From NCBI GenBank assembly GCA_907165275.2, contig OU015669.1, positions 4,114,501 through 4,178,500 of the forward strand: 64,000 nt of DNA, read 5' to 3'. A model generated the notes under the pieces. That model saw only the letters and a program-made list of their open reading frames with translations. It did not search any database and was not told the DNA's origin. Shown piece after piece: positions 9,401-44,500 of the stretch (its first letter is position 1; each line of letters opens with the position of its first letter). The stretch is from Zygaena filipendulae. Lineage: Eukaryota > Arthropoda > Insecta > Lepidoptera > Zygaenidae. Both the position numbers and the translations under genes were made by a program.

Positions 9401-11358
9401 GTATGTATGGTTTTTTTTATGTATTACACATTTGATTCTAACCTGATAATACGTAAATTACAATGTTTTTATAAAATTCTCACCTTTCACAATCCAAAAT
9501 TTTCCTAAGTGAGGCTTCTAAATTATCTCTAGCTGCTTCACTATCTGAATATATCAATACATTTGGAGACTTAGTATTTACTAATGGACGGGAACATTTT
9601 GCTGACTTTGGTGTACTTTTACCACATGGAGATGCTTTCTTACATTCTTCTTTTACTTGAGTACAGCCATCAATCTGTGGCTGCGGCTTCTTTGGACCTG
9701 TTGTACTAACTATTCTCTTATGTGTAGTTACTGATTTGATTTGACTTGATATGTTTAGTAATGATGCAGACAGCTGACTAGTACCTTTTTTCAAGTCGAG
9801 CTTCAAGCTAGACTTTTTTGGTGTTATATTATGTTGGATTTCAACTGTTACATTTTCAACAATTACTTTGCTATCATCAGACTCTTCAATGACTTTCTTC
9901 TCTGGTGATTTATCAGGTTTTTTTTGGGAAAATGCTGTGGTATTAGATTGTACAGTTGTATTTTCTACTATTGTTGGTTCTATTGTTGTTGGTTCTATTG
10001 TTGTAGGTTCTACTTTTGTAAATATTATGGTTGTGGGTTCTACTTTTGTTGGATCTCCTGTTGTTAGTTCCACTGGTTTATCGATTTCATCTTCAGCATT
10101 GAGTGACCTGCCAGTATTAACACTAACATCTGCAAGCGATACATTTCTTCTACTTATTGTTACTGTGTCTAGCAAATCACTGCTTCCATTCATATCTTTG
10201 GTAATACTTCTGCTATCAGACTTGATGTCTACAACCTTGGAGAGTTTTCTAAGCAGAGCTGCATGAACTGGCCACTGAAAAACACTTGGCAACTGTTTTA
10301 GATCATGATGAATTTCACTTTTTAAGCTTCTCATTGATGTATCAATTGCTTTGTTTGGTTCACCTGATAGCTGAACAGCTGAAAGAATTTAAAGATTATG
10401 ATAAAAGGCATAAATCATTATAAGACATAAGTAACTATTCATCAAACAAATTAACAACACTAACTTTGTATCCTGACTACAGGTAGTTTGTGGTCTATTA
10501 TGAATTCTCCACCAACAAAGTTGAAGCCCACCATACTGAGTATCTCAATATTGGTTTTCACAACTATAGCTAAGTGTGAACTTGCTTTCCATGCTACTGG
10601 CTCCCCAATTGTTTCCAGCTGTACTTGTAAAACAATAAAATAGTTATTGAATCATCTTAAAATGCAAATTAAATAAACAAAAAATTTATAGTATTTCATA
10701 CAGGGATAATGTCTTGATGGGAACTATCTTCATGTGGATCCATTTCACACTCTAGTAAGACTTCGAGGTCTAGATCAGAGATTGGAGAGAGGTCACTGGA
10801 GCCAAGAGGTAGACCACCAGCACAAGACACCCAATCATTAATCTCTATGCATTGTGTAGGTTTCATACTGCAAATCCTTGTAGCATTTGTATAGTCCAGT
10901 AAATCACACAAGTATGCATTCTTCGGATTTGTACACAGTTTGGAACTTAGTGTTGGGGTTTCTGCAATAATATTGGAATTGAAATTGAGTTTATGCCACT
11001 TTACATATTGCAAGTGTATTTGAATCCAAGCAGAAATATTGACACCACACATACCTACTTTGCAGAGATCACATCCATCTAAGTCATTTTGTAATATTTT
11101 TTCTAATAATAATAATATGATTGCATCAATTAAAACGTATGAGCTTAAGGCTACCAGTTACTACCTACATTATTCACAAAACAAAAAAGGTTCCATGGAT
11201 TCTTTACATGTTACAATATTACCTGCAGCATTTTCAGGAACTTTACAAAAAGCGACGCTTGTATTTCCCGTCAGAAACTCCAACAGCCGCGCTCTGAACG
11301 AGCGAATGCGCCAAGTTTTAATGAAAGTCATCGCTATATAAATTGGTGTAAACAACAT
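486..11358 (-). CDS. HLCS: Holocarboxylase synthetase / biotin-protein ligase, ten exons, 3' end outside window
   Basis: Exons in transcript order: 11358-11223, 10961-10702, 10618-10465, 10378-9484, 8963-8768, 8302-8178, 7214-7064, 6454-6278, 1265-1059, 671-486. They give 829 codons, all phases agree, and the frame is open at the left edge. The enzyme attaches biotin to carboxylases. The last exon carries the family signature AGRGRAGNRWLSPPG (about residues 808-822), the biotinyl-AMP binding loop. The end of exon 4 (SPNVLIYSDSE) plus exons 5-6 form the glutamine-amidotransferase-like N-terminal fold of animal HLCS. Exon 7 ends in TWRTPSLLQAV, typical of the linker before the catalytic part. 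The start is the ATG at 11358 (MLFTPIYIAMTF); an in-frame GTG lies seven codons upstream and is unlikely. Exon 4 has a low-complexity stretch rich in VEPTT. Exon 9 encodes eight consecutive glycines. Intron 5 uses a GC donor. The remaining catalytic exons and the C-terminal domain lie beyond position 1. Confidence 0.95.
3227..3290. repeat. Short hairpin
   Basis: AAACTACTTTTTAACACTAA (3227 on) pairs with the reverse complement ending at 3290 around an AT-rich loop. A smaller hairpin, GGTCGGATctcaacATCCGACC, sits just upstream at 3199-3220. Probably the remnant of a foldback element; no coding content. Confidence 0.6.
4096..5410 (+). mobile_element. piggyBac element, internally deleted and decayed
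   Basis: Both ends carry the piggyBac terminus: CCCTAGAAAGATAATC at 4096 and its inverse GATTATCTTTCTAGGG ending at 5410. TTAA target duplications flank it at 4092-4095 and 5411-5414. Subterminal motifs TGCGTAAAATTGACGCAT (left) and ATGCGTCAATTTTACGCATG (right) match the organisation of the cabbage-looper piggyBac. A transposase reading frame begins near 4429 (ATGGACAGTAGAATTTTGG) but is broken by frameshifts and stops; a piece of it is open at 4524-4775. Sequence resembling the early transposase runs to about 4950, then jumps to the cysteine-rich C-terminal region (AAATGCATCGTG near 4968). Most of the catalytic domain is therefore missing. At 1315 bp it is about half the roughly 2.5 kb of the full element. 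It cannot move on its own, but the ends look intact. Confidence 0.95.
5967..6226 (+). mobile_element. Miniature element, TTAGTCYGTC family, copy A
   Basis: Matches the copies at 8447-8636, 17526-17775 and, more weakly, 49995-50279. Shared features are an inner ATTGGACACGTATTT block, a GACGTCACG block, AATGCGCTTTATCT, and the right end CTGACGGACTAA. It has no coding capacity. It lies in the HLCS intron directly before the exon ending at 6278. Confidence 0.75.
6761..7006. repeat. Tandem duplication, two units of about 121 bp
   Basis: The block starting AATCTGGGTTTGCATA at 6761 and ending GTAGAATTATCTA is repeated from 6882 with a few substitutions. It lies inside HLCS intron 7 just before the donor of the exon at 7064. 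Confidence 0.85.
8447..8636 (-). mobile_element. Miniature element, TTAGTCYGTC family, copy B
   Basis: In reverse orientation it starts TTAGTCCGTCTTGTAG (at 8636) and ends CTGACGGGCTAA (at 8447), giving short terminal inverted repeats. It contains ATACATTGAGTTGAAATT and GACGTCCCAC. It sits in HLCS intron 5, the intron with the GC donor. Confidence 0.75.
9193..9207 (+). repeat. Poly-C tract
   Basis: About 13 cytosines in a row inside the HLCS intron between exons 5 and 4. Homopolymer length is uncertain in such tracts. Confidence 0.8.
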
Positions 11359-18695: not shown

Positions 18696-21600
18696 ATGGA
18701 ATTGAATTTTGTGGCGGCATTAATAAAACACGATGTGAATCACAATGTGAGAGAGTGCTTCAAATCCAGCAGGACTTTCGGTGAGTTAATCCTACCTAAT
18801 AACACTAATACGGTGTTAAAATGCTATAGTTATTCGTGACACCTAATACCAATCAAGGGAAGATCATGTTATTCATAGGTACTGCAACAAAGGGAAAACT
18901 ACTTATTAAAACTGATTAGGTACATACCTTTATGCATTATGGTCTTGTTAGGACAAATAATAATATAGATTCAACCAAAAGCATTAGGTACAATCAACTA
19001 AGTAGTTTGAGCATAGAAATCGATTAAAAGAAAAAAAAAAGATGGGAAGAAGCGATCCTGCGACAGGACGCGCAGGTAGAAAATAGAAACCTAATAGTTA
19101 TCAATTACCTAATACAAACTTCGTACACGTCAGTTCGTAGTTAGATATTATTTACTTATTTATTTTAGATTTTTTTTCCAACTATTCGAATAACAATGCT
19201 TGGTCCTTATTAAATATAAATGCGAGAAAAGTAGGACTTTTCCACGACTTTTGCTTAGTTAGGAGTCCCAAAATTTTCATTACGGTTAGTTACGGGTTTT
19301 CAGTATTGTGCTGCGAAAAAACATGGAAATAAAATTGTCTGGGGTAACGCCGCAGGCCACCTAAAATTTAAAAATTCAAAACAATTTCTAATTAATGCGC
19401 GAAGCAAAGCGCGAAGCTATCTTTATTAAAATTACTAAGTGGAATTATACGAAATTTTCACAAAATGAATTAAATTAATATAAGCAAACGTCTGAGGGAC
19501 ATAAATCAAAGAAGTCTAATGTGGTATTTTCCATATTATTAGTTAATATTTTAATGACTGCCATTTTATAATATTCAATCACGCAAAAACGGCTGAACGG
19601 ATTTGAATGAAATTTGGCATGCACGTTGTCAGGGGTACAGAGAAGGACATGGTGCTTTTTATCCCCGCGGGAACTCCGAAATTACCGCGGGTGAAACCGC
19701 GGGTCCGGGGCACAGCTAGTACAATAATAAAAAGCTGAAGGGTTTGTTTGGTTGAACCACGGGTTGAACGCGCTAATCTCAGGAACTACTGGGTTCGAAT
19801 TGAATAATATTTTTTTGTTGGACAGTCCATTTATCGAGAAAGGTATATAGGCTATTAGGTATTAACATCACGCTACGGCCTACGACTAATAGGAGCGCAG
19901 TATCAATGAAAAATATTACAAAAGACTGAAAAAAATATACCTTTTGGTAGATAGCTTCCGTTACGTATAACCCACGCTGCATAAACGGTTAAAGTTGTTT
20001 CCCTTTAAAAGTTCCCAATATTTTTAGGTTGACTCACTGTAACCTTTTTTATGGTATAGTTGATAGCTGTAATCGTTTTGAAATAATGCATTATTTGCGA
20101 AGGTGTTTTTACAAACATGGTATTAATCCTTATCCAAATAATGAATGATAATTTAAGGAAAAACACCTTAAATTAACGCGGATGAATCCGCGTGGCATAG
20201 CTGATCACTGCCTATACATACCTACTATGAAACAAAGTCTTCCGCCGCGTCTGTCCGTCTGACTGTTCGCAGAACTACTGAACGGATTTTCATACGGTTT
20301 TCACCAATAGAGTGGTTCATGAGGAAGGTTTAGGTACATAATTTGTCAAGGTTTTGTGTAAATTGGTTAAAATATAATGATAATAATAATTGGTAAAAGT
20401 GGAAAAAATGCATTTAATTATGCATACTATATGTAACGTGGTCAGTGGTACAGAGTAACTCTGAAATTAACGCGGGTGAAACCGCGGGGAACAGCTAGTA
20501 TTTTTAAAATAAATAAAAAGTAAAGTGTACCTAGGTACTTAGGTACTACTTATTCGACCGCAAAATTAATGTTTTCTTACTATTATGTACGTTCAACTGT
20601 CATTCAGAATTTCACTTTAGAATCCCTCACCTCATTATGCTCGGGAACTCCTCTCCGGATTTAAGAAAGTTAAGTTCCCATAGGAAAAATATTATTTAGT
20701 TCCCTTGTAATAAAATCTACTATTCCATCCTGATTCCCGTGTATTCGAAAAATGATTCTTGGATTTGTCGCCAAGAAGTTCTTGAGCAAAGTACTCAAGT
20801 GCTTTCGTCAAAGCTGGCAGTCCTGGCAGTAATGAGTTTTGAATTAGGAACATGAATGTGCTGCCATGTGCCGTGAAAAAAGACATCGAACGTATTGTAT
20901 TACCAAAGATAACACGATCACTACCTACATGGATTACCACAGTTACTATATAGCTCAATGTAGGTACTACGTATGAAAATATGGCACATGTAGGTACGAC
21001 AGGCTCACGAGTCACGGCTGTCTTTTGGAGAGGACTCTCTAGGAGAGGTACCTACTACTCTTTGGACCATTTGAATCGACCATTTGCTGCATTTTTACCT
21101 TCGCCTCTTCGACATTTATAATCCTTATTTCCTTAGCATAGGTATTACATACATTTTCCTTTCTGGGATAGGTATATGCATACGTCCTCCACGAACGACC
21201 TCTTCTGACACTTGCTCTAACGTGAACTTTCTTAGTCACTAATTTCATCTGGATTCTGGTGTAGGTATTAAAGTTTTCATTCATTAAATAATGCATCCTT
21301 TCCAATGACTGAACCATTTCGGTCTTTCTCTCCCTATTTTAACCACTACATAATCCTTTATCCTTTACAGTATCTCTCACTACACTATCTTTCATTATCT
21401 CAACACGCAGATATCTCCATTGCGTTAAATCCTTTCGCGCCGCCGTTACGTTACATGATATGCATATTATATAGTTCAATATATATAAATGTTATACTTA
21501 CTTACCTACTTAAAAATAATTTCTGTTCATTTGTCCCGCTAAAACTCGAGAATGGCTAGACCGATTTGGCTAATTTTGATCTTGAAATATTTGTGGATAT

Positions 21601-24600
21601 TCAGGGAAGGTTTAAGAAGTAAATTAGGCCACTTTGGAGTTCCTGCGGGAATTCTTTCACTCACGCGCGTAAATTCGTGGGCATAGCTTGTATGTTATAC
21701 ATATAACTAGTTATTTATAATCTTCCGCCGCGTCTGTCTGTCTGTTCGCGATAAACTCAAAAACTAATGAACGGATTTTCATGCGGCTTTCACCAATAGA
21801 TATAGTGATTCAAGAATTCAAGAGGAACGTTTAGGTATATAGTTTACCCTGTAATTCCCGCGGGAACTCCGATATTACCACTGATGAAACCGCGGGGGAC
21901 AGCTAGTAGTTAAATTTTTAACAGTTTGATAGTTTATCAGACTTCATCCGTCCCGACTCCCGAGTCCCGCGTCGCGCGTCGTTAGCAACACGTAGGTAGG
22001 TATTTAAATAGGTACAATCAGCATCAAAATAAACATTTGTAAAAATAATTAACTGAATCATGACACTAGGTAATATTATTATAGTAATTGCTATCTATAC
22101 CTACCTACTAAATCGTAGGTACGTTTTTACATCAATGAAAATAGTAGTAAAAGTACAAGCAGTAAAACTCTGAGGCACAGATAATGCCACCTATTATAAT
22201 ATATACCTACCTATACTGAGGTTTAACTACTGTTGATATCAATAAAAAAACAAGTAAAGAGTACCTACACTGGTTGTAATTTACAAAATATTCTATTGTT
22301 ATCTATCGTTAGATACGATTATTAAATTATCATTTATTTTATAAAATGTATAACAGGCAAGAGACCAATTATGGTGGTACTTACCTGGTTGCCTATTCAA
22401 CTGTAAACATTGCCCCTACTCTGCTTACATTATTCACTTCTCCTAACCGCCCATAATAAATAAATAAAATACCTACGCGAATTTTTTACTGTAGCAATAT
22501 CTGCTTTTAAGTCTCTAATAGATGTTGGCCCACTGCAATCAAGGCCAAGGATAGGTATTACCGCGATGCTGAGACCACCTGGCTTGCCTTGGCCATAAGG
22601 GAGTTAAAACAGTTTCTCTGGCGGCTTTAATCTTTCAAAAAGGCGAGTTTCACATAAAATCATCTACATTAGTCGTAGCTTAGATTCACATCGAATTTGG
22701 CCCACAGAAAATAGTAGAACTTTGTATCAATTTGCCCAATCGGCGTTTATCGAAGCTCGCCCGACAAACATTTATTAGCACCTTTAGGTCAAGATGATCC
22801 ACAAAAAATCTACGGGTATTTAGTAGATATTATGTTATTTAGTCAACTCATCCCGCGGGATAAGTTTGAAACGCGATCAGCTGACTAAAGAGCCCATAAT
22901 TATGTTTTAATGCAAAATCGCAATCAAATCACCACGACATTTATGATGTTATAAAATTAACATACTCAAGTACATTGACCCCAGTTTTGTGTTACCGAAT
23001 GTGTATCTGTGTGTACTCGTTATCTCTTGTTGATTTATTTTAATTGATGCCTCCTATTTGTTACTACCACGTTCGACTGCGACATATGTACAAATCAACG
23101 ATACGGAACTAGAACTAGGGTTTCGATCGGAAAAAGTATCTACCTAATCTATTGGTCGTCGCCATTTTGTAGGTATACCTGTACAGTGTACACTGAGCCT
23201 GTACATCGCCAGTTGCATTTTGTATTGCCTATTGTGTCGGAGAGAAAATGCGTTGTGGACTGTGGTGGGTGCTTGCGCATCGGAAATCTAGGGGAGACTG
23301 GGGTCAATAGAAACACGGGTCAATAGAAACAAGTACAATAACTACGAAACAAAAAAGGATAGGGGGGCGGTCCCTGAGGGGGGATGGATCTGCGTTTGTA
23401 TCAGAACCTGTGGAACTGTGCTAGCCGCGGCTCCGTGACCGTTGGACGTTATTACGCGAGTGTATTGCTTTTCCGGCACCAAAAGTAAGTATTTTTGATG
23501 TTTTTGTTTTGTGTATTAGGCAATATCCATTGGTAGTAGTTTAATACTATTTAACTGCCTGTTTGTATGGATATTCTTGTTGAATTTGTAGTGGTTTATG
23601 TAAACCTACCGTCTACCGTTATTTTTCTACGATTTTAAATATTCACCTTGACGTTGCTGGGTCAATTGAAACAAAATTTACCGGGTCAATTGAAACACGT
23701 TTTAATTGATCCTTGTATGTGGTTTTAAGCTTCTTTTTGCAGTAACACTTCTTTTTTGTTTTTAGATGCCGTGAAACCGTCCAAAAGCTACTAATCGCGG
23801 AAAGTGAAGTATAGATATCGTATAGATTGATCCGTTGTAACTGCATCACTATACAACGGATCAATCTAATACACCCTCAATGACCCTTGGTCCTGTTGTT
23901 GATCCATGTCATCCATCTAAAAGACAGTCAACAGTTTTCTAACCGGAATCAACTAGACCTTTTCCTATTGCTTCACCAAGGAAGCTGCCTGCAGGTGGTG
24001 GGAGAAAGAGGAAAAAGAAGAAATTAGGAAAAAATCGGAAAAGAGAAATCAGAAAAAACAGGCAAAGAACGAATTAGTAAGAAATTAGTAATAGTTGATC
24101 TTATTACTTATAAACATTTAAAAATTCTAAATGATTAAGCAAGAAGTACCATATGAAAATTTTGTTAAGTTAATAGCAATAAATGCTAGCTTTTTTTGTT
24201 AAGTTGATGGTAGAAACTACCTTTTACTGTGTTCTTATCAAAGACTGAGATTATTATGATTTAATTATGACTAAAAAATAAATTTTAATGATTATTACAA
24301 TAAATAAATATTTTATTTTTAGGCGTTTCAATAGACCCCATTCATTGTTTCAATTGACCCGCAATCAGGGTCAAATGAAACAATTTTCGAGGATTTTTAA
24401 AGCCCTTGTGATTTCGTATCTGATACCTATGGATAAAAATTAACATAGCAACTTTAAAGCCAAATAATCTAGCTATAGTCAGAACCCTTCACAAACCAGT
24501 ATTGATGGAAAATGTAGGCACTATGGCCGTTTTTTCGGAAAACGTTTCAATTGACCCCAGTCTCCCCTACGTGATATCCTTAGATGATATAATTTATGAT

Positions 24601-27600
24601 AAATTCATTATGTCAGCAAATAATCCTTCTTTCTAATTAGGTTACATTTTAAGATGAAAGAAAATAGATTAAACTAACGGCCGCACGAGTCGTTTTAATG
24701 ATTACTTAATTTTAAGTAATGATTTTTAAAAGAAAACTGTCGCAATTCAATTTGAGACGTTTATTAAATTAATGTTAATTTGCATTTAATTAAATATATT
24801 AAAGGCTAATTAACATTAATTTAATCAACGTCTCTAATTGCGGCAGTTTTTTTTTAAATCTTTACTTAAAATTAAGTAATCATTAAAACGACTCTTGAGT
24901 GCGGACATAAAGTCACAAGTTACTGAGTTATGACTAGGGGTACACAAGGTTGTATTCGGTAACCGAAGAAACATGGAACTCCGTTAGTTATACTCGACCG
25001 ACCGAGTATGCCTACATCGAACTCAAGAAATTAGGTTTGAATTAACTGTACGTAGGTAGGTTTACAATAAAAACTCGATCTTATTTCTTTGAACTGTGTT
25101 GTTTTAGGTCAAAATGACGCGGGTAGTTTGTGTATAGGTATAATAAAATTTCCATGCTTCTTTTAGTATTAGTTTAGTGCTTACAACGCAACCAAACGCA
25201 TCCGTTAAATGGAATACTTACAAAATATCTAAATGTGTCATGTAACGCGTAACGTAACGCAGCGAAATGTTTTTCCTGCAGCCCCGTGCAAAAACGTGTA
25301 CGTATAGGCACTTTAAGTATAACAAGTGATAGTTTACAACTAATTGTTAATACGAAACTAGGTACTTATACAAAACAAGACGCGACGACGACGCTCGCTA
25401 GCCTGCCGACCTTAAATTTATTTAGCATAAAACACAGATAAAAGAAAAAGATAAACTCGAAATTGAACAACAGTTATATTTAAAACGGCTTTGAAACTGC
25501 ACGCGCAATTGGTAGAGGTACCTATACCTATACCTAAACAAGTAAAAAAATCATAATTTTAACATTTTATCTTTAAATATTTTTATCTTTACAGTTTCCC
25601 GAAAAGAAGAAGTAATGGCGATAAAAAACAAATTTCCCTCCAAAATACCGGTAATTTGGAATTTCAGTTAGATAAAAACTGCCTAAGTGTTTCGAACTCG
25701 AACAAACAAGTGTTTCAAATACTACATTTCGTTTTGCAGTTACTGTTAGAGAAATATCACAAAGAAAAATCTTTACCCACCTTGGAAAAGAAAAAGTTTC
25801 TAGTTCCCGGTGATATAACGATGTCGCAGTTTTTAGTTGTCGTAAGAAAAAAAATGAAACTTAAACCAAATCAAGTAAGTTCTTACTCATTACAATTTGT
25901 TCTAAACACCAAAATGGATCGAAAAAAATAATTCAAATTCTAATTTTGAATTTGGTTTCTGGTGAAGAATTCACATATTCATTCATCCCTGCTCACGCCC
26001 AAGGCTGAATGAGAGTACAAACCACAGATAATAGTATCACGATAATATTACATGTAGTAGTAGCTAGTAGTAGTACTACAAATAGGAGTGGAAGTCTGTC
26101 GGCCGATATGATGATTGACATAATCATTAATCATCATCATCACAATTAAATACTTTAACATCTATTTTTGTCACACAATATGAATTTTGCACCTACCACC
26201 AGTCTCACTTGGTCAAAAGATTGACTGGAAAAGAATGTGCTCCTTAGCTTAATTCTAGTTTTCTATGTTCACTGTACAACTCACCGCCTGTGGTAATCGT
26301 TTGGCAAAAACCGCCAAATATTTTTGCTCATTTGCTTACTAATAATAATAATAATAATCCACTTCACGCCTTCAGGCTATCTATTTGATGATCAACAACA
26401 AATCGATGCTAAGTATGACGTTGACAATGAGTCAGGCATATCAGAGTTATTGTGACGAGGATGGTTTCCTATACGTGACGTACGCCTCACAAGAAGTCTT
26501 CGGTTATCAAGATGGTAAGCTCTTAACTAGATCCAACTCATACCTATCCAACCCGTCACTAACGCCACTTTCTAAAAAAATCGTAACGTGAATTCAATTT
26601 AATAAGAAACATCCTAGAGGGACATGTTAAAATACCTACCTACTATAACCACAAAAAATCTCTTCTCTTCTCGTACCTATCTTTTTTATATTGTATCGAG
26701 TTTAAATGTTGCAGAAGTATTGCAAAAAAAAATTGAATATCCTGCAAGGAGATAAAATTTTCTTTACCAAACAACATTTAACAAGTAACAAGTGGCGTTA
26801 GTATGACGGTACCTTATTAATTTGTACCTATACTGATTTTATTGCTGATAGTGTGGATACTTGCTGTTTTTAATCTTTACTTGTTTATGTGGGTAATATC
26901 GTGTGGTGTCTACCCATTAATTTTTCAGTTCATGTAATTTTCGAGTAAAATTATTACTTGCAAACCTTAATTAAAATTAATTGATTACCAAACATTTTAT
27001 TAAAATACATTTTTCCACAGTTATGCTCGGCGAAAAACAAGAATTAGAAGCAATAAAACATAGGTTCCCGAATAAAGTACCCGTGAGTATCTACCTACTT
27101 TCTTCTTCACCGCCAAATTTACCTATTAAGTAGGTGGGTAACTACTAGGGCCTGAATTTGAAAAAACACCTCTATTTTTACTATTTGTTTCAAATAGATA
27201 CTGTTGATCCATTTCAGTCATGGAAGCTTTAAAATTTATGACCCATCGACAGAAAACATTTGCTTAATTTTTTTTTTATATTTGTTTTTTATTATAGCTT
27301 TTCGTCGAGCGATACGTGAATGATAGGGATGTTCCGACACTGTCGAGAAAAAAATTCCTTGTTCCAAGAGAGCTGTCTTTGTCCCAGTTTTTGTACCTGA
27401 TCAGATCAAAAATGAAATTAAGAGATACACAGGTTCGTTGCAAATTATTTTTACCATTATGTTAGATTTAAAGTTATCTATTAGGTTTATAGGCTGTTAG
27501 ATTTTTTGCCTCTATCTTCAAGCTTTTTTAACCGACTTCCAAAAAGGAGGAGGTTCTGTGTTCCGTGTGTTCGGCTGTATGTACTGTATGTTTTTTTTGT

Positions 27601-29100
27601 ATGTTCACCGATTACTCGAAGACGGTTGGACCGATTTGGAAAATTGTTTTTTTTGTTTGTAAGGGTATGCTTCCAAGTTGGTTCCATTGCCACCAGATTG
27701 GAATCTGATAATGGGATCTTGGAGAAATATATAATACAAATATAATGATTTGAGTATTTTTTATAATAATAATAAAATTGTTTATTGCCATTAGAAAGGT
27801 GTACAAAAACATGAAATTAGCCAATTATAGGCAAAAGGAAGTGATTCAGCTTAAGCTGCTCCTGACCTAGGTCCCGAGCAGCGCTGGTTTTCAATAACTA
27901 AATCGTTCATTTGCTTTCAGAAAGCAAAATTTGAAAAAGTGGAACAGATGATGAAGACCACAGATGGTCATCGGAACTACTTAATAATACGCATTTCAAG
28001 GGTTCCGATTAGACCGTTTTTTAAAAATGGTTTTTTTTGTTTGAAAGGGTATACAATTACTTTTAAAGTTGGTCCCATTGTCACCAAGTCGGGATCTGAT
28101 GATGGGATCTTGGAGAAATCGAGGGAACTCTTCAAAAATTATAGGCGAAAATTATAATCATTTTATATAAATATAAAATATAGCGATTTGGATATTTTTT
28201 ATATCAAACCGTTTATTTGCTTTCGGAAAGCAAAATTTGAAGAAGTGGAACTGATGATGAAGACCACAGATGGTCATCGGAACTACTCAATAATAGGTAT
28301 ACCTATTTCACGGGTCCCGAGTCGTTAACTTTAGTATGGTTTCTAAACAATTTATGCTCGTCACAATGTATATGGCGAAGTGGGACCAGTGATGTATATG
28401 GTAATGTATATGGTGATGTACCAGGAGAACTCCTCAACAATTAACGGCCCTGCATCGGGAAAATCAATATTTTGTAAAAGGTGATGAATAGTTGAAATTA
28501 GGCTATCCTAATTTCACTCACTGAGTGAAAGAATAGAATTAAAAGCGAGAAATAAACAAAATATTAACAAAAAATATTACGTGTATTTTTGTCTTTTGGA
28601 TTAAATGGCTACCTGCCTATTTTGTTATTTATAGCTTTTTAGTATAGTGCATATTTTGGTGTTTTTGGAAGTTTGTTTTAATTTTTTTGTTAAAATTTTG
28701 TTTATTTCTCGTTTTTTAAAGCTTCTTATTCTTTCTCGGGCGCATCGCTGACAACCGCCGTGGCACGCTCGCTGCGCTCGCTCAATTCGTGCGTTGTGGT
28801 CCTACGTGCAAATTCAAACCTAACCTAGCTAGCGGCGGTCGCGTAGACATGAGATACTAGTGCGCATTAATTTGTTCGATGTGCAGTTCAATATTTCCCA
28901 AAATAATGAAGTTGTTCACGTTTTCTAACCGTATTTGATAATGCTAATACGTGCATGTCTATCTTCAGGCGTTGTACCTACTGGTGAACAACAAGGTGCT
29001 AATGAGCAACAGTATGACGATGGGGCAGGCGTACGAGATGTTTAGACACGACGACGGCTATCTGCACATCACTTACGCAGCGCAACAAGTATTTGGCTGA
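18696..29100 (+). CDS. Tandem Atg8/LC3-like protein: two ubiquitin-like Atg8 domains in one polypeptide
   Basis: Exons: 18696-18780, 25595-25650, 25740-25874, 26376-26514, 27021-27082, 27298-27432, 28969-29100. Together they encode 247 residues with consistent phases. Atg8 proteins are conjugated to phosphatidylethanolamine on autophagic membranes through a C-terminal glycine and dock cargo receptors. Domain 1 spans about residues 21-135 (FKSSRTF, KFPSKIP, PTLEKKKFLVPGD, CDEDGFLYVTYASQEVFG). Domain 2 spans about 139-247 (HRFPNKVP, PTLSRKKFLVPREL, DDGYLHITYAAQQVFG) and ends in the glycine directly before TGA. It is closer to the LC3 type than to GABARAP. By eye the two copies share about half their residues. 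Introns fall at homologous positions in both: after I/V-P, and after the Q that ends the central exon. A normal Atg8 is about 115-125 residues, so this is double length. Intron 1 is 6.8 kb and full of mobile elements; intron 2 is only 89 bp. The family is certain and the fusion is well supported by phase; expression is not shown. Confidence 0.9.
19573..19720 (+). repeat. CCGCGG-family repeat
   Basis: Forward copy: AAAACGGCTGAACGGATTTG, GCATGCACGTTGTCAGGGGT, ending CACAGCTAGT. Part of the tail is duplicated (CGCGGGTCCGGGG). Confidence 0.75.
20235..20500 (+). repeat. CCGCGG-family repeat
   Basis: Forward copy beginning CTTCCGCCGCGTCTGTCCGT and ending CCGCGGGGAACAGCTAGTA; the middle is diverged. 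Confidence 0.65.
21721..21907 (+). repeat. CCGCGG-family repeat
   Basis: Forward copy beginning CTTCCGCCGCGTCTGTCTGT and ending CGGGGGACAGCTAGT. A diverged fragment of the same family lies just upstream at about 21530-21690. Confidence 0.7.
23291..24567 (+). mobile_element. pogo/Tigger-like DNA transposon remnant with TA duplications
   Basis: Terminal inverted repeats GGGGAGACTGGGGTCAAT (left) and ATTGACCCCAGTCTCCCC (right) are flanked by TA on both sides (23289-23290 and 24568-24569). The motif GGGTCAATTGAAAC recurs inside (about 23659 and 23684). A small hairpin, AGATTGATCCGTTGTA, lies at 23824-23866. Near 23960-24080 one frame reads PFPIASPRKLPAGGGRKRKK, similar to the basic C-terminal tail of pogo-type transposases. 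The rest of a transposase is missing or unreadable. Superfamily assignment rests on the TA duplication and that tail. Confidence 0.7.
24678..24905. mobile_element. Palindromic miniature element, GGCCGCACTC family, copy 1
   Basis: The arms start CGGCCGCACGAGTCGTTTTA and end with the inverse (AAAACGACTCTTGAGTGCGG). They contain AATGATTACTTAATTTTAAG and its inverse, around a core with TTAATGTTAATTTGC / GCTAATTAACATTAA. Nearly the whole element folds back. Related copies are at 55501-55734 and, partially, at about 63104-63185. Confidence 0.8.
26336..26358 (+). repeat. (AAT)n microsatellite
   Basis: About seven AAT units, shortly upstream of the acceptor for the exon at 26376. Confidence 0.85.
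27525..28450 (+). repeat. Composite repeat, AACCGACTTCCAAAAAGGAG family with internal duplication
   Basis: Starts with the common lepidopteran motif AACCGACTTCCAAAAAGGAG GAGGTTCTG (a fragment also occurs near 9361). A block containing GATGATGAAGACCACAGATG appears twice (about 27905-28010 and 28200-28305), as does TGATGGGATCTTGGAGAAAT-like sequence. It lies in intron 6 of the tandem-Atg8 gene and has no coding evidence. Confidence 0.65.
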
Positions 29101-38506: not shown

Positions 38507-41500
38507 TCCCCGCGGTTTCATTTGCGATAATTTCGGAGTTCCCACGGGAATTCCGGGATAAAAAGTACCCAATGTCCTTCTCTGTAAGTCTTTCCCCCTG
38601 TCTTAGTGTTTACTATAGTGTGCAAGACTTCCTAGACAGAAAAGTTGACTATTAATTTGTGTTTATTCATTTCTTCATTGACATTAACATTTTGAAATTA
38701 CATTCGTTTTGACAAATAATTATTGTGATGAATTGATTGAATTTAATATATTTTGCATATCACTCAATGACTAGACATTAGGTTGTTGACGAGTGAAAGC
38801 CGTACCGAAAACACGCGTGTCACGTTTGTCTTCGTTATTTCAGTCACTTTTCAGCATCTATTTTGGACCCTGAGCAGGAAACTGGCTTTCAAGAGAGCCA
38901 TGTTTTAACTTGGGGAACAATCTAACATTGTCATTGGCGTTTCGCCATAATTGAAAAAGTAGATGAAGAGATTATTATTATTAAGAAACATTGTCATTGG
39001 CAAATTATAATTATAGACGCCATTATTAAAGAAGAAGAAGACTAGACATTAGAACTTGAATCAAAATTAACAATGTACCCATCTTTTAGAACAATGTCTT
39101 ATGCAAATAAATGATTATTATTATTATTATTATAGCCTACCTGCCCAGGAGTATGGACTACAATCGTACCAAGTTTGGTTAAAATCCTTTCACTAGTTTT
39201 TGACCCATGCGTGCACATACAGACAGACAGACAGACAAAAAATTTACTGATTGCATTTTTGGCATCAGTATCGATCACCATTCATCCTCCAATATTAATT
39301 TTGAATATTATATATTCAATGTACAGAATTGACCTCTCTACAGTTTTATTATAATTATAAGAAGATATAGATAAATTAATGCATACATGATACGATTAAT
39401 AATTGTCACTTTAAAATATTTAGTTTGATTAAAATGTGCATCCAATCTTTCGCGTGTTGAATTGGTTGACATTTATTACCAAAACTAGGCACTTCCTTAA
39501 AAAATTGTAATAACTCACTTGTGTAGTGGGTCCAGAATCGAGTCGAGACGTGATGACGGTGAGAGGTAGGTAGTGCGATGCTGACTGCGCTTGCTGTATA
39601 CAGGTTGTTGCTGTTCTCTAAAATATCGAAACATTAATCATCAATATTATACATCGCTTTTATAACTGACAGTGTAGGAAACTATATAATTAATTTAAAA
39701 AGTTACAGATAGTTTTTTTGGTCTTGCCTTTATAATCATAATCAAGGAGCTTGTGATTTTAATAAAAATTTGAAATGTATGTATGTATCAGGGACGTTGC
39801 GGATGCCGATTTTTTCACATTCGCGGGTGTCAATGCGGATGCGGATTTTCCAATTATCACATCCGCGGATTCGGATGTTTAACATCTTATAATATAAGAT
39901 CCGAATTCATATATCATTCATATACTACATTTATAATATAATATATAATATAATGAAGAATCGCTCCACCCGCTGCTGCAACTTCGCTGGTCGAACCCGC
40001 TTTCGGCGCCGCCACCGACCCTGACCGAGCGCGCTGGGCACCACCGCCTGCGGGCGGCCCGGGCTCTCTGGGCGAGTTGGCTTCTCTGAAGATTAAAACG
40101 CCAGTGCTACGGCACATACCCAAGGGGGCGCGAAGTATGGCGGCCGGGAGGTTGAGCGACATTATCAACAAGTGCGTTGATTGTAATGGGGAGGAAGAAT
40201 GGTATTCGCTTCTCTCATTTGCTTATACAGCTCTTAGGGTGCCGTCTAGGAACCTGCCCGGGAACATGACTACTAAAGTGAAGGCGAACATCTTGTCTTC
40301 TGAGAGCTCTAATTCTTTGGGCCTTAGCGATGGGCTGGAGAGCGCGGACGGCGTTTCAGGGTCCCGCTCCGTGCGAAAAATTCTGGAGGCGAAGGTTTTC
40401 GAGGGGGATCTGAGGGGAGCGGTGCGGCTGTTGGTCTCCGACGATTCTTTTGCACAACATGTTCCGGAGACGTTGGCCGAACTCGAGCGGAAGCACCCGG
40501 GCCCGTCACGTCCACATGACTTTCCAGCAGCACCGGATTCTCCACCGTCGGCAGCGACATGCACTGCGGATGAAGTGGCCGGAGCACTCGGGTCATTCTA
40601 CAGCGGTTCTGCGGCGGGTTTGGATGGGGTCCGTCCTGGTCATTTAAAGGAGTTAACGTCGGGATCCGCTGGTGATGCTGGGGTTCGGCTGTTGGATTCT
40701 CTGACCAGATTGTCGAATTTTATGCTGAGTGGTCGGATAAACTCGACGGTGTGCCCCTTCCTTTATGGTGGGTCACTTTGTGCGTTGGCAAAGAAAGGAG
40801 GAGGGATAAGGCCTATTGCTATAGGTAGCGTGTTTCGCCGGCTGACTGCCAAGTTAGCCTGTCGGGCTGTGAGGGAGGAGATTTCTAGTTATCTTAGGCC
40901 GCATCAGCTGGGTTTTGGGACGCGCTTGGGTTGTGAGGCGGCGATACACGCGACCCGGGCTTACGTAACGGACAATAGCAACTCGGATTCCGTTCTGATT
41001 AAACTGGACATACGTAATGCTTTTAACAGCCTTGAAAGAGACACTCTGTTGAGCGAGGCCATAGAACATATTCCCTCTCTCTATCCTTTCCTGTACCAGG
41101 TCTATCGTTTTCCTTCGAATCTTTATTATAACCACGAGCTCATTCTTTCACAGGTGGGAGCACAACAGGGGGATCCACTCGGACCTCTGGTCTTCAGCCT
41201 GGCGATACACAAGGCTATTTTAGATATTAAGTCGCCCCTTAACCTGTGGTACCTGGACGATGGCACCATTGGAGGGAAGCCGGAGGAATTGCGTCGGGAT
41301 CTCGAGACTCTTATCCCGCGTTTCAAGGAGTTGGGTCTCGAGGTGAATCCTTCCAAGTGCGAGTTTTTTCCTTGCTCTTCTGGAGCTAGAGCCCACTTTG
41401 CAGGATTCGGATCCCTTTTGCCTGGCCTCAGAGAAGTTTCTCCTGATAACTTTTACCTTCTAGGATCTCCTGTGTTCCTTGAGGCGGTACCGGAGGCATT

Positions 41501-44500
41501 GAAGTCTCGGGAAAATACCCTTCGGTCTGTCCGGGATCGCCTCGAGGGACTGTCCGCGCACGTCGCGCTGGTTTTGCTGCGTGTGTGCTTTGCCTTGCCC
41601 TCCGTTACGTACTTGCTCCGAACTGCGCCTACCTGGCTGTGCCCTGAAGAGGTTTCCTCCTTCGACAGAACATTGAAGTCCACAGTCGAGGCCATAATCA
41701 ATGTGCGTCTCGAGGAGGCGCAGTGGAGTTTGGCAGCCCAGCCCATCCGCTATGGGGGCCTCGGAGTGCGGCGCGTTGGCGACGTTAGTTTGCCGGCTTT
41801 CTTGGCATCGGCGCATGGGGTTGCGGACCTCGTCGCTATCATCCTTCGTTACAGCGGTGATGGGGTTAGCATACCTTTTGTGGCCCGTGCTCTGGAGGCG
41901 TGGTCGGATCTCAGTGAGGGGGCGGCTGTCCCAGCTTCTCCTCATGTACAGCGGGCCTGGGACGATGTGGTGGCGAAGTTGTCCCATGGAAGAATTCTGG
42001 AGGAAGCAACAGGGGCAGACTTGGCAAGACTGAAGGCAGTGGCACAGCCTGAGTCGGGGGCATGGTTGCATGCACTCCCGTCTCCTCACCTAGGCACCAT
42101 GCTGGACGACAGCTCCCTGCGTGTGGCGGTGGCTCTTCGCCTGGGCTGCAAGGTGTGCGAACCTCACAGATGCACCTGTGGCTCTATGGTGGAGGCCGAT
42201 GGCCATCACGCGCTGAGCTGTCGCCGGAGTGCGGGGAGGTTCTCGCGTCACCATGCCCTGAACGATATAATTCGCAGGGCCTTCGTGTCAGCTAATGTCC
42301 CCTGTTTGCTTGAGCCGCCGGGCCTAAGTAGATCAGACGGGAAGAGACCAGATGGGGTGACTCTGGTGCCATGGCGGAACGGCAAGTGCCTGATCTGGGA
42401 CGCTACCTGCGTCAGCACAGTAGCCGCCAGCCACTTGGGTCGCTCTACCCTCTTCCCGGCAGCTGCCGCAGAAGATGCTGCCAGCAGAAAGCGGCTTAAA
42501 TACGCGGAATTGGAGCCGCAATATAAATTCGTTCCAATCGCGGTAGAGACACTCGGCAGCTGGGGCGCGGACGCCAAGACATTGGTGCGCGAGTTAGGGA
42601 ACCGTATCAGAGACCAATGCGGTGACTCCCGTTCCGGCTCGTTCCTGGTGCAGAGGTTGGCCATGGCTATTCAGCGCGGGAATGCGGCCAGCCTCATGGG
42701 CACCTTTGCACCGGGAACGGTCAGGGGCGGGTTATTTGATATACATCAAATAGGATAGGATTGACAGTTAGTTATATAATACTAAGTTACCAATTGTTTA
42801 ATAACATTTAGTAATACGTATTAAAATACTATGAAGAATTAAAACAATGATTATTAACATTTTTATTAATGAAAATTATCATTAAGAATAATGCTCCTAT
42901 TTTAATTTAATTTTTCTTTAACTTCACTTCGGTCCTAATTTTCATTCGCCAGCCTCGCCAAATTTCTTTTTTATCGCAACTTGTATTACATCCGCATTGA
43001 TTAATGCGGATGCGGATGCAGATTTTATGTGGAAGCTCCGCATTTGCAGATGCGAATGCGAATACTCGCAACATTCCTGGTATGTATGTTTTGTTTTTTA
43101 TATGATTGGACAGATGCAAGATGTAGTAATTGTGATTATTACTTATATCACTTGTACAAGCAAACAACCTGTTAATTGACTTATTGAATGGAAATTTCCA
43201 GATTTTGCAAAACAATCTTGATAATTTGGTCACTTCAATATGAACAGCATTGAAACTATGACTGTTTAGATATATATTTATTAATTGGTGACAAGTAAAA
43301 CATAAGAGATAACTTTTTTATCATGTCAGATCGATAAAGCAATAGATATGAGAGTGAAAGGTTAATTGTTCACAACACAGTGATATAAATAATGTAACAG
43401 GGTAATGCAAATGCATACATGGACGATTTAACTTGAACTTTCCAAGATAAACATACCACACCCCTGGTGGACTAGCAATGGATTATTATTGCAATAGTAA
43501 TTCTTATTGGATCATTGGCTGATGTGGAAATTGTGACATTCCTTTAACTATTTGTACCTAGATAAAAAGTAACCTTAGTAACATGTTAATACAGAAACTC
43601 TACCAATGGACTGAATTTCATCTATTCAGCCATTTAAGTGTGATTCAATATCAAACATATTCACAAGTTTTTATGTATTTTGTTAATAGGGTAGTGAAAT
43701 GATAAACCAATCTCTAATGAATGAACTTACCAAATGTAATTCCATTTGATCACATAATGAGAAGAACTCTTCTAGATGTTTATCAAATCTTGGCACCGGA
43801 TTATCAATACCTTTTCTGAAAATAAAATAGGAAAACAATCTTTAGAAACTACCTATACCTACAGGTTAGGGGGTGTCCATTAATCACGCGAGGCTCGAAA
43901 GGGGGGAAGAGAGGGGAGGGCCCCCCGCCCTGGGGGTTCAGAAGAAATCACGAAATATCACAAGGAGGGGGGAGGGGGATATAAAGAGATATCAAGTGTA
44001 TTTATTTTTCGTATTTAAAGGTAATATTTTGAAAATTTCAATAAACTTTGTAGGTACCTACTAAAAAAATACACGTGATTTTGGGTAGGAGGGGGGGCGG
44101 GGGAGTCAAAAGTTAAAAACATGACGTGAGTCGTGATTAATGGACGCCCCCTTAGGGCAAATATTTTTTAAATTTATTTTACCATAAAATGTAACTTACT
44201 GTGAGTTTGAGTCTACATTTTGATTATAATGCAAAACTTGAGCTGCAGATTTCAATGTCAACTGAAACCAAATTTTTGTTTTATTGACATGTTGGGTACT
44301 AAAATAATAGCAATATGAGATTTAGATGTCCCGCAGATGGAAGTGAAAGTTGTTTGATTGTAGGTTCCACTTCAGAAACACTGATGACTTTGCAACAATA
44401 TTTACATGAAGTTGAACGTGTTCTATTAAAGTTCTTGTCTAGTTACAGTAGCTAGGATTTTCTGGTTTTGGACAAGTTATGGTGGCTTAGCTTTTATTTA

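Follow-up and report, generated by a model that had tools for sequence, protein, structure and literature searches.

A tandem LC3-type gene of Zygaena filipendulae and other Lepidoptera as a candidate di-LC3 precursor

A seven-exon gene with two ATG8 domains

Atg8 tags are usually treated as single-unit proteins. In the moth Zygaena filipendulae, a gene that encodes two Atg8-type modules in one reading frame lies at 18696-29100 on the forward strand of a 64,000-nucleotide stretch of contig OU015669.1 (positions 4,114,501 to 4,178,500; hereafter the window). The initial annotation had described seven exons joining in phase into a 247-residue protein, and a check of splice sites and frame bears this out: all six introns are GT-AG, their phases are compatible, and the joined coding sequence of 744 nt, stop codon included, spans 10.4 kb of the window without an internal stop (Table 1). 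At the aligned position of the start codon, Met is present in 33/33 rows that have a residue there, the other nine of 42 rows having a gap.

Both modules match the Pfam ATG8 profile (PF02991) above cut-off, with E values of 4.3e-67 for the whole protein, 9.9e-37 for module 1 alone and 1.6e-30 for module 2 alone; the first match begins at residue 31, in exon 2. Each module contains a KFLVP block and ends in a glycine preceded by an aromatic residue (F134-G135 and F246-G247, both conserved, as judged from sequence). The single domain per protein that is typical of the Atg8 family is thus replaced here by two domains in one frame, a one-domain form being the family's usual state and not a condition of homology.

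Exons 2-4 and exons 5-7 share the same boundaries and phases, so module 2 most likely arose by intragenic duplication of exons 2-4. The two modules are identical at 53 of 112 aligned residues, which indicates that the duplication is old. Exon 1, with its 20-residue extension and alpha-1 region, is absent from the duplicated block. Since module 2 lacks the part supplied by exon 1, it amounts to an Atg8 core and falls short of a full LC3. The earlier description of two complete Atg8 modules therefore holds for the two ATG8 domains and for the repeated FLVP and FG motifs, but not for the completeness of the second module.

A structure model of the Loxostege orthologue, built with 35 sequences, is consistent with this layout, showing two folded ubiquitin-like modules (mean predicted local distance difference test score, pLDDT, 71.9; predicted template modelling score, pTM, 0.45). 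With so low a pTM, the model does not fix how the modules are placed relative to each other. Confidence is low at the N-terminus (residues 1-21) and falls below a pLDDT of 50 at residues 135-142, and the linker at the junction is probably flexible. As to the N-terminal helices, module 1 has the corresponding region, in which the model places no confident alpha-1, and module 2 has only alpha-2.

Table 1. Exons and linker of the tandem gene, in window coordinates.
Feature	Position	Strand	Length	Content
Exon 1	18696-18780	+	28 codons + one base	Start codon; N-terminal extension of 20 residues; module 1 alpha-1 region; donor gtgagt
Exon 2	25595-25650	+	56 nt	Module 1 alpha-2 region (VSRKEEVMAIKNKFPSKIP)
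Exon 3	25740-25874	+	135 nt	Core of module 1 including FLVP block; ATG8 profile match in search of own genome
Exon 4	26376-26514	+	139 nt	Module 1 end F134-G135, then linker start Y136-Q-D; ATG8 profile match
Linker, residues 136-144	26505-27037	+		Intron 4 (26515-27020) falls within it; putative Atg4 site at G135/Y136
Exon 5	27021-27082	+	62 nt	Rest of linker and module 2 alpha-2 region, without alpha-1
Exon 6	27298-27432	+	135 nt	Core of module 2 including FLVP block; ATG8 profile match
Exon 7	28969-29100	+	132 nt	Module 2 end F246-G247, stop codon directly after; ATG8 profile match

Intron 1 harbors two repeat-like structures. A stretch of about 1.28 kb (23289-24569) is flanked by 26-nt inverted repeats that are 96% complementary, has GGTCAAT(A/T)GAAAC-like motifs near its ends and resembles a non-autonomous DNA transposon. 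A nested palindrome at 24684-24897, with arms of 51 and 43 nt that are about 90% complementary, is similar to a miniature inverted-repeat transposable element.

Distribution and origin of the tandem

A search with the 247-residue protein, a check that the initial annotation had proposed, found 321 proteins; 120 of these were listed, and a screen of the 120 for two copies of the motifs picked 43. At least 40 tandem clusters (P0001-P0040), 64-76% identical to the query across 70-100% of its length, have the same architecture, a recurrence that excludes chance. Thirty-seven of them are named as moths or butterflies, a few species occurring twice, and we take all of these species to belong to Lepidoptera; P0006, P0024 and P0029 are unnamed. 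From these sequences, a tandem LC3 gene seems to be widespread in moths and butterflies. The remaining three of the 43 are the ladybird entry P0041, the frog entry P0042 and P0045, a scrambled and partial gene model of Operophtera. The frog protein was considered as a third tandem and set aside; its first module ends in FVK without a glycine, and two genes may have been joined in this entry.

The initial annotation knew of no described insect Atg8 of this form. Searches of the titles and abstract starts of open-licence papers, with preprints and subscription papers outside their scope, found no description of a tandem Atg8/LC3 gene. Public databases, on the other hand, already hold the gene, mostly without a specific name: 21 of the 37 named clusters are labelled 'uncharacterized protein', and the others are hypothetical or unnamed, LC3B- or LC3C-like, lgg-2-like, or autophagy-related protein 8.

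Several entries also bear on whether the two modules share a transcript. Both modules occur in one uninterrupted frame in P0006 (longest contig 1104 bp), P0024 (13 contigs, the longest 1779 bp) and P0029 (longest contig 1175 bp), and P0043, on a contig of 1156 bp, spans the module junction. Given that the gene in the window occupies 10.4 kb and has six introns, contigs of 1.1-1.8 kb are most likely cDNA, a retrocopy being the alternative. Transcripts confined to one module, which the initial annotation had named as the sign of two separate genes, are so far contradicted by these four entries, with P0183 (discussed below) as a possible exception. That gene prediction misjoined two adjacent single-domain genes is very improbable. 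Exons 2-4 and 5-7 do each encode a nearly complete Atg8 core, and translation might in principle begin at the Met that lies at the start of exon 5. However, all three frames contain stops in the 150 bases upstream of this exon, and in the frame of the exon itself no ATG follows the last of these stops (a first exon farther away was not sought). The same join moreover recurs in the 40 clusters. The absence of a start into exon 5 within 150 bases, together with the two-module frames on short contigs, led to the rejection of the two-gene reading.

A relative from the caddisfly Arctopsyche has 144 residues and a single module; in the phylogenetic tree it falls outside a clade that unites the two lepidopteran modules (support 97/80). 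An alternative tree that pairs module 1 with the caddisfly protein is not rejected by the approximately unbiased test (p-AU 0.50), so the duplication may or may not predate the caddisfly split. As drawn, the tree places module 2 inside the module 1 sequences; this nesting is not meaningful, because a tree with module 1 as a single clade fits slightly better (likelihood 1.54 higher, p-AU 0.55). Rooting with the moth's own single-domain Atg8 was dropped for its very long branch.

The ladybird entry, from Coccinella septempunctata (P0041, LOC123319974), is annotated as a 271-residue double LC3 whose junction likewise has FG, followed almost directly by a second module that lacks alpha-1. Its two modules pair with each other inside the beetles (97/97), and on the strength of this pairing the ladybird tandem appears to be an independent duplication. 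Grouping the second Coccinella module with the lepidopteran second modules is 13.9 log units worse, though not formally rejected (p-AU 0.225), and the composition of the sequence is unusual. The similar junction in a ladybird suggests that such tandems may have evolved on more than one occasion.

LC3 type and the other Atg8 gene of the genome

Among solved structures, the best sequence match to the tandem is LC3C (1.8e-37, module 1 region), with yeast and plant Atg8 and LGG-1 lower among the best 60 of 113 matches; in a Foldseek comparison of the Loxostege model with the PDB, LC3 structures likewise rank first. In the tree, both modules group with LC3-named proteins and the moth's own single-domain Atg8 sits on a very long branch. 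By these comparisons the tandem is closer to LC3 than to GABARAP and is classified as LC3-type. With LC3C and the nematode LGG-2 it shares the FLVP block and the Phe-Gly end. Known members of that subfamily, however, have one domain and one reactive glycine, whereas the tandem has two modules per chain, the second without alpha-1.

An ATG8 profile search of the moth's own genome (366 Mb in 56 contigs) gave matches at five places, four of which are exons of the tandem gene. The fifth is a single-exon locus for a single-domain protein of 117 residues, read from its sequence as GABARAP-type. No second LC3-type gene was seen in this search, from which short exons can escape, as exons 2 and 5 did. 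As the only other Atg8 locus is read as GABARAP-type, the tandem appears to be the sole LC3-type gene of the genome. The single-domain protein, like the Bombyx BmAtg8, belongs to the same superfamily as the tandem but has one domain and is GABARAP-like by reading of its sequence.

A division into two types is also described in other insects. According to the available part of a study on Aedes, Apis and Tenebrio each have one GABARAP-type and one LC3-type gene, and Drosophila has two GABARAP-type genes (PMC7215330). For Lepidoptera, the ATG table of the silkworm, in the part available, contains a single Atg8, for which loss of the final residue, Asn117, is proposed (PMC2693526), and in the accessible portion of the main text of a review of lepidopteran autophagy, ATG8 is used and the term 'LC3' is absent (PMC4124216). 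Silkworm and armyworm material is in use for autophagy work, where a single Atg8 is spoken of in the parts of that literature consulted. The usual rule that each gene product contains one tag unit does not apply to this gene, a natural tandem, apparently widespread in Lepidoptera and the sole LC3-type gene of this genome; moths and butterflies may produce their LC3 as a two-unit precursor or use it as a dimer. The interpretation in the initial annotation thus stands in part. The fusion is real and conserved, while the LC3 type, the ordinary single-domain Atg8 and the lepidopteran spread had not been recognized.

Proposed maturation of the tandem protein

Atg4 trims Atg8 precursors after their C-terminal glycine. 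The favored reading, to which a probability of roughly 60% is assigned on the basis of sequence and analogy, is that this intragenically duplicated gene makes a head-to-tail di-LC3 precursor that Atg4 cuts into two LC3 proteins. The cut would fall after Gly135 in the flexible linker, a site (G135/Y136) that we infer from knowledge of the family. It would expose the glycine of module 1 for lipidation by Atg7 and Atg3 and would release module 2, whose own glycine is already exposed and would require no trimming. The outcome would be two non-identical LC3 proteins in a 1:1 ratio, one with the usual N-terminal region and the other shorter and without alpha-1, possibly with separate roles.

This reading is favored because the layout is that of an engineered tandem cut by ATG4, both glycines are kept, and the genome contains matches to Atg4. 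Endogenous ATG4 cleaves the probe GFP-LC3-RFP-LC3deltaG behind the glycine of its first LC3 unit, giving a 1:1 pair (PMC5618514), and ATG4 is also described as able to remove LC3 from proteins (PMC6709618). Like the moth protein, the probe has two LC3 units per chain; unlike it, the probe is man-made, carries fluorescent proteins and has its second glycine deleted. The profile of Atg4 (PF03416) matches at two places. One (L006, G000:C14:7500923-7501756, reverse strand) lies within a single 499-residue open frame, spans positions 2-274 of the 276-position profile and may be a retrocopy or an intronless gene; the other, on C1, is in pieces. Polyubiquitin and ubiquitin-fusion genes also encode head-to-tail ubiquitin-like units, which are matured by dedicated proteases. 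The ubiquitin repeats, in contrast to the diverged LC3 modules, are nearly identical.

The junction was compared in 41 lepidopteran rows, namely P0001-P0040 and the window protein, P0045 being left out as a scrambled partial model without the junction. F134, G135 and Y136 are invariant in all 41 and the preceding residues 131-133 vary; within the linker (136-144), Y136 is the sole invariant position. The motif FGY[QKH][DH] is present at the junction in 40/40 clusters. The distance from the junction glycine to the RFPNK motif is 16-19 residues in 40 of the 41 rows, and P0037, the one row outside this range, seems to include an intron that was read through. At the other end, module 2 stops exactly at FG in the window protein and in 36/40 clusters; P0010 continues with EVQSP and the remaining three have divergent annotated ends. 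With module 2 ending at its glycine as a rule, only the first site would need to be cut. Invariant columns of the second module number 18 of 103 when P0035, P0039 and P0040 are included and 35 when these three, with their divergent annotated ends, are omitted. At the positions that we take, in LC3B numbering, to form the pocket for the LC3-interacting region and the contacts with Atg4, both modules mostly keep the residue or have a conservative substitution.

Several observations weigh against processing by Atg4. Taken by itself, an invariant FG is weak evidence, since the 41 rows also agree fully at 42 of the 105 columns of module 1; the junction is suggestive and not decisive. The caddisfly protein, with its single module, has Gly and not Tyr at the position following the corresponding glycine. 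To our knowledge, Tyr after the glycine is not a requirement of Atg4. In the window protein, module 1 has Ser at position 10 and Met at 82, and module 2 has Phe at 34 (Leu in module 1) and Gln at 117; module 2 also departs at 108 (Tyr) and lacks alpha-1 together with its basic pair. A further point is P0183, a 110-residue frame on a 1404-bp contig that consists of the second module only and starts at the linker Met; it could reflect a shorter transcript or a retained intron.

P0183 also fits an alternative in which the gene yields mainly single-module LC3s, through joining of exon 1 to exon 5, read-through of intron 4 or a start at the exon 5 Met. Such splicing is possible because exon 5 is in phase with exon 1 as well as with exon 4 (exon 1 plus exons 5-7 is open and encodes 137 aa), because exons 1-4 with a retained intron 4 stay open until a stop 28 residues past FG, a short removable tail, and because intron 4 has two ATTAAA signals, a count with no chance control behind it. 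Isoforms labelled X2 with other N-termini are annotated as well (P0031-P0033; Bombyx, Pieris). This alternative is nevertheless rated as quite unlikely. In a search with module 1, every one of the 36 rows that outscore the caddisfly protein is a tandem (among the best 120 of 4017 matches). In a search with module 2, 13 rows outscore the caddisfly protein, P0043 and P0045 among them, and P0183 alone of these is second-module-only (among the best 120 of 975). Six of the 41 rows lack the linker Met, and the short contigs carry two-module frames.

A second alternative, somewhat less unlikely than the last, holds that the tandem stays joined as a covalent LC3 dimer, with module 2 lipidated and module 1 serving as a second receptor-binding head, which could bring clustered cargo receptors or membranes together. 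In favor of a lasting dimer, the second glycine is already exposed without processing; pocket positions are mostly kept in both modules, and the modules remain joined in 40 clusters by a linker of narrow length range. Against it, the Phe-Gly of module 1 in a low-confidence linker is what Atg4 recognizes, the engineered LC3 tandem is cut in cells, and permanent joining would not require selection to keep Gly135. With just one other Atg8 locus seen in the genome, an uncut tandem would seemingly leave the insect without a monomeric LC3. Both functions put forward in the initial annotation, processing into two units and crosslinking by a permanent dimer, are conjectural, and the former is the one preferred here.

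Processing and joining may also coexist. N-terminal Tyr belongs to the destabilizing class of residues. Atg4 could thus set a switch, in which the uncut protein would act as a two-headed LC3 lipidated through its second glycine and the cut protein would give a normal LC3 plus a short-lived module 2 starting at Tyr136, with Atg4 choosing between dimer and monomer. Such a switch is doubtful, a shade more so than the splicing alternative.

Elsewhere in the window, an uninterrupted 933-codon frame at 39957-42755 on the forward strand contains a reverse transcriptase domain (RVT_1, 1.6e-19) and is probably a non-LTR (long terminal repeat) retrotransposon. On the reverse strand, a 302-codon open frame at 9480-10388 is rich in Thr/Glu/Pro repeats, has no Pfam match and is possibly an exon of a larger gene.

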